Of a DNA stretch of 64,000 nt, positions 27,083 to 30,510 are shown one piece after another (positions within the stretch are counted from its first letter, which is position 1; every line of letters begins with the position of its first letter). The stretch is from assembly GCA_016744115.1 (NCBI GenBank), contig JADGEZ010000001.1, forward strand, positions 80,877 through 144,876, read 5' to 3'. The position numbers and the translations under genes are program-made. This stretch comes from Sulfurimonas sp. Its GTDB lineage: Bacteria; Campylobacterota; Campylobacteria; Campylobacterales; Sulfurimonadaceae. Below the pieces are notes generated by a model. It was not told where the DNA came from. It did no database searches and worked only from the letters and a program-made list of their open reading frames with translations.

Positions 27083-28155
27083 TCAAAATCTTAACTGTAA
27101 ATTCAATTTGAAATAATTTTTTGTTTTATCTTGAATGATAGTTCCAAATTTATTCCGTGAAGACGAAGGAGTATCTAATTTAATATTTTCAAATAAATAA
27201 TCTCTTAAGCTTTCCATATCTATAATGTGGAAGCTTACTAAGTTAGCATTTTCTTTAACAACAATAGTTCCATAACTTTCATGTAATCCATTCCATTTTG
27301 TCCCAGCGAAAAAGCCTAATAATATATCAACTAAAAACTTTTTCAATTTATTTATTAACATAGCTTTATCATCAATATCTAATTCATTTAATATATCAGT
27401 CTTATCGCATAAATAATCAACAATATCAGATAGTTTTGAAATTCTATTACTGTAAAATGTCATTAATAGATAAGCAATAATCTTTGGTAATACACTATCA
27501 ACCGTCTTTAAATTATAGTTCATTGTATCTTTTTCAGCCTTTTGATAATTAAATACACCACCATTAGCCTTAATAGCTTCTATTCTATCTTTAAGTTTAG
27601 TTCCGGTAGAAATACTATTAATAGCAGCTACTTTACTACTATCTAAATTTGTGATTTCAAATATAAAATTTGTGTTACCTGAAGCATTTAATAAAGTCGG
27701 TTTACTGCCTAAGTAGGATTTTATTCCAAAACCTTCATTTTTTCTTACAAATGAACTATGTTCTATATCTAACACAATATCAGCTTTTTTAGAACTGGTT
27801 CCACCCTTTACAACTGTAAAACCTAATGTTGTTTGAATAAGCTCGAAATCTTCTATTTCAAAAGTTCCACTACCTTCTTTAATTTTATTAAGAATATTTT
27901 GTAATGTATCAGAATTAATTATTTTACTAATATCTATATCTAACTCTTCTTTAGTCTCTCTATTTATTGATTTAATTGTAAACTCATCTAGAGGAATAAA
28001 ATCTAATTTTAAATTTTTTGTAGTAACCTTACTAACTTAAAATAGTCTCCTGTTGGCTCTAAGTTTTTATCTGACAATAATAATTTTTGCTCCAACAGTA
28101 CTTTGATAAAAGTATATAATTCACTCCATTCACCTTTGTTATTAGTTTTCTTCAT
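27083..28155 (-). pseudogene. HpaII-family restriction endonuclease, interrupted by an apparent 1-nt deletion in an A6 run
   Basis: Start MKKTNNKGEWSELYTFIKVLLEQ at 28155; the frame stops at 28009, but the -1 frame continues KNLKLDFIPLDEFTIKSINRE...GGTSSKKADIVLDIEHSSFVRKNEGFGIKSYLGSKPTLLNASGNTNFIFEI to 27083. Inserting one A in the run at + 28014-28019 joins the two. Confidence 0.65.
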
Positions 28156-29053
28156 TTGTTTACCTTTTTTATCAAGATTTTTCATATATTCAATTAAATT
28201 ACTGCCTACTACTTTAACAGCATCAATAGCTACACTATTACCTAATTGTTTCATTGCCTGAGTAGCACAAACAGGAAAATGATAATCATCAGGGAAACCC
28301 TGAATTTTCTGAGCTTCTTTAAATGATAACCTTTTAACTACTCCATCAACTAAATAAGAATCCCAGTTTCTTCTATCGTCAATTTTTGAACCTCTACCAC
28401 CAACACGAACAGTAAAACCAATTTCTCTACTACAATTTCCACCCCAAACATCACTCATATTAAATTTTAACGGTATTTTAGGAGGAAAATTAAAACCTTT
28501 TAAAAATTCTTCGTCTCTAAAACCTATCATAAAAGTTCTCGGTCTTAATTGTGGTAATCCATAATCAGAAGCTTTTACAATTTGATGATAAAAAGAATAA
28601 CCTAACTCTTCTGTAAGTATATTTTGAATAGTTCTAAATGTATTTCCATTGTCATGATTAACTAAACCACGAACATTTTCTAAAAAAAATGCTTTTGGTC
28701 TTTTAACTTTTATTATTTCTGCTATATCAAAAAATAGATTTCCTCTTTCAGATTTATGATTATCGTCAAATCCATATTTTTTACCTGCTTGACTAAATGG
28801 CTGACAAGGAAAACCAGCACATAATAAATCAAAATCTGGAATTTCTTCAGGCATTATACTTTTGATGTCCTGATTAAATAAACCATTTTTAAATAAATTA
28901 GGAGAATGTTTACTAAAGTTGTGTTCGTAAGTTTTTCTAGCATTTAGATCAATTTCAGAAGCAAATACACATTCCCCCTCCTAAGTCCATTGATTGATGA
29001 AACCCGCCAATACCAGCAAATAAGTCTATAAATTTAAATCTTTTATTATCCAA
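28156..29053 (-). pseudogene. C5-cytosine DNA methyltransferase (likely HpaII-like partner), interrupted by an apparent 1-nt insertion in a G5 run
   Basis: TTG start 29053 gives MDNKRFKFIDLFAGIGGFHQSMDLGG (motif I); removing one G from the run at + 28974-28978 continues ECVFASEIDLNARKTYEHNFSKHSPNLFKNGLFNQDIKSIMPEEIPDFDLLCAGFPCQPFSQAGKKYG (motif IV PCQ), ...FFLENVRGL..., ...QRIQGFPDDY-type motif, LGNSV. Confidence 0.75.
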
Positions 29054-29238
29054 GCTAGCCTATCTATGTTTTTTAAATGTATTTTACAATAAAATATATC
29101 ATATAACTTAAAATGTACTAATTTATTTTACGAAAAATTCTAAGAAATATAAAGTAAAAAAATAGTATAAGATATTAAATAATAGAATGAAAATCATAAT
29201 AGGTACTAACACAAGTGCTTAATTGACAAGGCTTAAAT

Positions 29239-30510
29239 ATTAAAATACACATAGACATAGATTGTTTTTTTGCTAGTGCTGCTAGAATAGTAGATCCTGC
29301 TTTAGAGAACAAAGCAATAGCTATTGGTGGAAGAAGTGATACTAAAATATTTACTAAGGATGCGAAAAAACAAACTATAAACTTTGAAAATTCTGGTTCT
29401 TTTGTTCCGACATTTTATAAAACTTATGAAAAATCTGATGATGATATTAATACTTTTAAAGATGCTGATGGGCGGATTCGTGGGATATTAACAACCTCCT
29501 CTTATGAAGCAAGAAAGTACGGTATCAAAACTGCCATGAGCATAAGAGAAGCCTTACAACTTTGTCCTCACTTGATAATAAAAGCACCAAATATGTCGCT
29601 ATATCAAAAACTCTCACACGAACTTCACAACTTTTTAGCAAAAAGAATCCCCCTCGTAGAACAAGCTAGCATAGATGAATTTTATGGTGATGTATCAGGT
29701 TGGGTAGAGGATGCTGATGTTCCAAAATTTATAGACAATCTTAAACATGAGATAAAAAAAAATTTACATCTTCCTGTATCTATAGGTGCTTCAAAAACAA
29801 GATACATCGCAAAACTTGCAACAACTTATGCTAAACCTTTTGGAACAAAAATTATTTATGAAGATAATTTTGATACCTTTGTAAATCCTATAAAGGTAGA
29901 AAAATTTGCAGGTATCGGCAAGGGAATGAGAACTCGACTTCATGCTGTACATATTCATACACTAGGCGAGTTAAGACAAAGACGAGGTACGTTTGAATCT
30001 TGGAGTCCTTATGCAAAAGAGTTATATAAACGAGTAAGTGGGCTTAGTGATGCTCCCATTAAAACAAGCCATAAAAGAAAATCTATAGGAATTTCACGAA
30101 CCTTTGACGCTCTTTATGATAGAGTCGAGTTAAAAAGAAGGGTACATGTCTTAGCAAGACACCTTAGTTTTGCTATCTTAAAACTTGAAGTTATTCCAAC
30201 TGTTTTTCATCTTAGCATCTCTTATGAGGGAAATATATCCTCTAATAAAAATATCTCTTTAGCAGAAATTTTTACAGATAAAAAGTTTGATTCTTTATGT
30301 ATAAAACTCTTTAATGAAGCCGATACTCAAAAAAGACTTCATCTTATCCGACTTAGTATCAACTGTTCTAGTTTTACACGAGATTCCAAAAAAGAGTTAT
30401 CTCTCATCGGTTTTGAAGAATCACAAAAGATGAAGAAACTTACTTCCGCCGTGCAAATTTTAAGACAAAGATATGGTATAGACACTCTTAAATGGGCGAG
30501 TGAACTGTAA
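29239..30510 (+). CDS. dinB: Y-family DNA polymerase IV, apparent ATT start
   Basis: Frame from 29239: (I/M)KIHIDIDCFFASAARIVDPALENKAIAIGGRSDTK...ILTTSSYEARKYGIKTAMSIREALQLCPHL...QASIDEFYGDVSG...; AAGG at 29228-29231. Track start 29536 would delete the catalytic N-terminus. Confidence 0.82.
   Translation: MKIHIDIDCFFASAARIVDPALENKAIAIGGRSDTKIFTKDAKKQTINFENSGSFVPTFYKTYEKSDDDINTFKDADGRIRGILTTSSYEARKYGIKTAMSIREALQLCPHLIIKAPNMSLYQKLSHELHNFLAKRIPLVEQASIDEFYGDVSGWVEDADVPKFIDNLKHEIKKNLHLPVSIGASKTRYIAKLATTYAKPFGTKIIYEDNFDTFVNPIKVEKFAGIGKGMRTRLHAVHIHTLGELRQRRGTFESWSPYAKELYKRVSGLSDAPIKTSHKRKSIGISRTFDALYDRVELKRRVHVLARHLSFAILKLEVIPTVFHLSISYEGNISSNKNISLAEIFTDKKFDSLCIKLFNEADTQKRLHLIRLSINCSSFTRDSKKELSLIGFEESQKMKKLTSAVQILRQRYGIDTLKWASEL

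Follow-up and report, generated by a model that had tools for sequence, protein, structure and literature searches.

The 64,000-nucleotide stretch of Sulfurimonas sp. DNA analyzed here (the window) contains on its minus strand, at positions 27083-29053, what is probably a recently inactivated natural restriction-modification (RM) gene of the one-polypeptide kind, in which an amino-terminal C5-methyltransferase (M) is followed by a carboxy-terminal endonuclease (R) of the HpaII family. The window copy is broken in frame in both parts, whereas its intact relatives encode the two enzymes in one open reading frame (ORF). A frameshift alone is ordinary. Single-chain RM enzymes are portrayed in reviews as adenine methylators for the most part, cutting outside their site, and a fused C5-methyltransferase::HpaII protein departs from this picture. 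With the fusion conserved in four phyla and a second such fusion present in the same genome, the survival of a cell that has cutter and protector in one molecule becomes open to testing, and from the broken copy one can see how a fused unit may be lost without death of the host.

Two frame breaks in the window copy

The G5 run lies on the minus strand exactly where it had been predicted, as CCCCC on the plus strand, and the frame is broken there just after motif I. From the TTG at 29053 the frame reads LDNKRFKFIDLFAGIGGFHQSMDLGGGMCICF before the stop at 28957-28955; the original prediction had the frame and the stop right and left out the last five residues. Skipping one G in the run brings the methyltransferase frame back, as had also been proposed, since the alternative frame extends without a stop from 28980 to 28012 and carries the remaining C5-methyltransferase (PF00145, 223 bits). 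Motifs I, IV (PCQ), VI (ENV), VIII and X (GNSV) are all present, with motif I in another frame than the rest; as it stands, M is not the single ORF expected of an active enzyme, being broken after motif I and one residue short. Intact relatives read ...LGGECVFASEID... at the break site, so the frameshift is real relative to the family. GGFH and LGG are separated by five residues in 28 of 28 aligned relatives and by four in the window copy, and in DNA alignments with six intact relatives the window copy is a net two bases short at about 28984. The best reading of this deficit appears to be the loss of a codon before LGG together with an extra G, which leaves 3-10 mismatches; one 2-bp deletion, although it costs one event fewer, leaves 6-12 and is a possible but poorer fit. 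The G5 run is absent at this place in the relatives. G or C runs of exactly this length occur 12 times in the window, so that the run itself is unremarkable and the disrupted frame is the observation of interest.

The second break lies in the endonuclease. The 323-residue frame (28012-28980) runs past the methyltransferase into the start of the HpaII endonuclease profile (RE_HpaII, PF09561), and the profile resumes in another minus-strand frame (28036 to 27086, 312 bits), so that its full length is covered across two frames (positions 1-38 and 38-359). The run-on of M into R was considered as a third frameshift and ruled out, being common to all close relatives. The break in R is a -1 shift in an A run at 28037-28038, seen against each of the six intact relatives, and owing to this shift R lacks an uninterrupted frame. 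The gene had been described as one nucleotide from intact, which does not hold given the codon also missing from M and the separate shift in R. Over its whole 1.97 kb, the gene is 75-84% identical in DNA sequence to the six intact relatives, with just two internal indels. Searching by fold with the modeled R domain returned nothing meaningful (best E 0.3), the model being weak around the likely active site, and a search with the fused model gave matches through the M domain only (M.HhaI).

Table 1. Features of the broken fused gene (window coordinates)
Feature	Position	Strand	Basis
Whole broken gene, C5-methyltransferase and HpaII-family endonuclease	27083..29053	-	Start TTG 29053, end of R 27083; alignment to six one-ORF relatives; PF00145, PF09561
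Amino-terminal piece of M with motif I (FIDLFAGIGG), then stop 28957-28955	28958..29053	-	Translation
G5 run at the frame break	28974..28978	-	Sequence; no G5 in relatives
First lesion, net -2 relative to relatives (best read as codon before LGG lost, extra G)	28974..28987	-	Alignments
Second frame: M motifs IV-X, in frame into first ~38 HpaII positions	28012..28980	-	PF00145, 223 bits; PF09561 1-38
In-frame ATG at M/R junction (MKKTNNKGEW) with AAAGGT before it; R may start internally here	28153..28155	-	Present in most, not all, fused relatives
Second lesion, -1 in A run early in R	28037..28038	-	One base short relative to each of six intact relatives
Remaining HpaII-family endonuclease, profile 38-359, third frame piece	27086..28036	-	PF09561, 312 bits

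A fused family in four phyla

When bacterial genomes were scanned with the R fragment, 41 loci emerged, 28 of which encode M and R as a single uninterrupted ORF (647-698 amino acids where complete). Both Pfam domains match within one protein in these 28 relatives, a type IIC-like arrangement; in the window copy M and the amino terminus of R still share one frame, yet the chain is broken. The fused loci come from Campylobacterota, Cyanobacteriota, Bacteroidota and Pseudomonadota and include isolate genomes; intact members are found in G092 (below) and in a Flavobacterium branchiophilum type. The R domains of the fused loci group in a single clade (support 100) that excludes four split HpaII systems, and the window R falls inside the Campylobacterota group of this clade. 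A complete genome of the same genus (G092) likewise has its fused gene next to dinB, in the same divergent arrangement. In the window, the adjoining dinB-like DNA polymerase IV gene (29236-30510, plus strand) has ATT in place of the start codon, which is ATG or TTG in 12 of 12 relatives, with a stop upstream of the ATT and no other usual start between. A fused protein apparently identical to that of G092 was also found on a 3-kb contig assigned to Candidatus Gracilibacteria, which is probably mis-binned (L027).

The ATG at the junction of M and R is shared by most fused members and is not a start codon in four (L043, L050, L054 and L062), so free R cannot be a family-wide requirement. Several other members, mostly from metagenome assemblies, appear to be decaying themselves. 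Three loci (L058, L060 and L061) have in-frame losses inside R and retain M, and are possibly on the way to solitary methyltransferases. In a Sulfurospirillum metagenome-assembled genome (L030:3415-4951), most of M is gone and the R frame is open; CCGG is not avoided in its 9 kb (5 seen, 6 expected). HpaII-family matches in plasmids and phages are distant (22-35% identity), and in the best plasmid matches the annotation gives R and M a gene each.

CCGG avoidance and specificity

The original prediction had tied the C5-methyltransferase to a CCGG system of the HpaII type, and this is supported both by the profile match of R and by avoidance of the site. CCGG occurs 12 times in the sampled DNA of this genome against 72 expected, and twice against 35 expected in the sample from G092. 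In five genomes of the same genus without the fused gene, the ratio of seen to expected CCGG is 0.76-0.98. In addition, m5C mapping of Sulfurimonas denitrificans DSM1251 found CCGG methylated at 133 of 157 sites (PMC8112702), and the palindromes avoided in G092 (CCGG, GATC and CGCG) agree with the motifs published for this strain, although the G092 sample contains slightly fewer CCGG sites than 157 in the genome would give (P 0.03). The fused gene would most likely act at CCGG. Counting against a simple relation, the genome with a split HpaII homologue (G098) does not avoid CCGG (0.81).

Other palindromes are depleted as well. ACGT is nearly absent from the window and the sampled DNA of this genome (17 seen, 261 expected), GCGC and GGCC are strongly avoided in the same DNA (0.15-0.16), and GATC is likewise avoided, which indicates that other restriction systems also act in this genome.

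Recent decay or sequencing error

The original prediction left decay and sequencing error side by side as explanations of the broken frame; of the two, decay is the more probable, favored by the rate of breaks and the lost codon. Relative to its relatives, the window copy shows omega values of 0.07-0.13 in M and 0.12-0.17 in R, the same as between intact relatives, and it contains no stops beyond those of the two breaks; the breaks are therefore either recent or not real. Taken with the strong avoidance of CCGG, such values point to long function and very recent inactivation. They are also exactly what an intact gene would show, and each frame change can be read as a +/-1 change in a short homopolymer, like a sequencing error. 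For this reason, the main rival to decay is a serious one, if clearly the less likely of the two: in this view the breaks arose during sequencing or assembly, at short homopolymers, and the fused CCGG system of the organism is intact and working. The intact-type omega, the lack of further stops and the retained CCGG avoidance all suit such errors.

How often frames break elsewhere bears directly on this question. We scanned 253 kb of this genome (155 kb covered) against 1,977 ORFs from a complete relative. Outside the fused gene the scan found apparent -1 shifts in prmA (G000:C43 ~28144, L088) and in an HD-domain gene (~61218, L090), along with one weak case. Both genes are on the same contig as the fused gene and both shifts fall in an A or T run, as sequencing errors might. 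Breaks are nonetheless rare in this comparable coding DNA, and the low rate rules out pervasive sequencing error; at the observed 2-3 per ~153 kb, two breaks in a 2-kb gene have a P of 0.0003-0.0007. Moreover, the codon missing beside the G5 run is not a homopolymer error, and the start of the adjoining dinB is changed by substitution. The window R is changed at more of the near-invariant positions than most relatives, by a small excess, and these changes and the lost codon would fit real decay. With two breaks, one per enzyme, and with parts of R or M missing from other members of the family, we consider the breaks more likely to be biological than technical.

Phase variation had also been offered as a possible cause of the frame break, which would then be the OFF state of an active system with slippage at the G run. 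The break does coincide with a G run, poly-G switches are used by Campylobacterota, and this genome has a G10 tract at another place. However, Campylobacter surveys take at least 7 G or C as the cut-off for a tract, with 9-10 being typical (PMC6321876), and G5 is far below this. The relatives have no tract here, and a change in the tract alone would leave M one residue short and R broken by its second, unlinked lesion, all of which makes a phase-variable OFF state very improbable. The G10 tract itself (L090:2199-2208) lies near the HD-domain gene and its length could be phase-variable. Least probable of all is a bypass of the breaks by programmed frameshifting or internal starts that would yield a shortened M or a free R: a 281-residue frame does open at ATG 28854 and the AAAGGT before the junction ATG resembles a Shine-Dalgarno sequence, but the former start leaves out the AdoMet-binding motif I, a free R begun at 28155 would still run into the R break, and the relatives are open at both places and so need no recoding signal.

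How a fused system may be lost

Decay of a fused gene would have consequences different from those of a two-gene system. In intact relatives, one protein of about 660 residues and ~75 kDa would methylate CCGG through its M domain and cut unmethylated CCGG through its R domain. Cleavage probably depends on an encounter of two R domains, so that restriction would set in only once the protein has become abundant; with methylation by monomers and cutting by dimers, cutting would lag behind protection. An argument of this kind has been made for type IIC enzymes (PMC12707154), and control by dimerization in the fused family may be proposed by analogy. M and R being one polypeptide in the intact relatives, an early frameshift removes both, and a frameshift near the amino terminus need not be lethal. 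In the window copy, the net -2 in M after motif I and the -1 early in R would leave neither activity, a state that is harmless rather than lethal. The earlier worry that loss of M beside an active R would kill the cell does not apply as stated, R being broken too. If the junction ATG also served to produce free R, the failure of R would have had to come before that of M. A broader view, to which we would give even odds, is that the window gene is a dying member of a widespread natural m5C 'type IIC' family in which restriction depends on assembly and early frameshifts are harmless, and in which an internal in-frame start in Campylobacterota may also yield free endonuclease.

Comparison with known systems

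The window gene resembles the HpaII RM family (PF09561 with a C5-methyltransferase, CCGG) in the full-length profile match of its R, in the M.HhaI fold of its M and in the avoidance of CCGG by carriers. Ordinary HpaII systems, however, are two genes (L006, L009, L065, L066 and the plasmid matches), while the intact fused relatives are one ORF, and the frame breaks in both parts set the window copy apart as well. Fusions of two-gene type II systems were found to be rare in a 2014 survey (PMC4176335). The C5-methyltransferase::HpaII fusion as a CCGG system is little described: we found no paper on it in the open-access literature, and REBASE may catalogue such fusions.

The closest engineered counterpart is RM.Eco29kI, a type IIC fusion that likewise joins an m5C methyltransferase and a type IIP endonuclease in one chain acting at a palindromic site (PMC3039593). 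It is laboratory-made, places R before M and uses a GIY-YIG nuclease, whereas the present family is natural, places M before R and uses an HpaII nuclease. Its authors noted that the proven natural type IIC enzymes are m6A enzymes and suggested that natural m5C fusions might exist (PMC3039593). Type IIC/IIG enzymes such as Eco57I, BcgI and MmeI also hold both activities in one polypeptide but, unlike the fused family, are mostly gamma-class m6A enzymes with R mostly before M, at the amino terminus, that cut outside their site (PMC4081073).

A second natural fusion occurs in the same genome (G000:C70:7947-9734, L096), where an intact 596-residue ORF encodes a C5-methyltransferase::RE_Eco47II protein. 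Similarly long open frames match it in two other genomes of the same genus, and short ones in two others. Like the fused HpaII family, this protein is a natural C5-methyltransferase with a carboxy-terminal type II endonuclease in one ORF; it differs from the window gene in its endonuclease family and in its intact frame.
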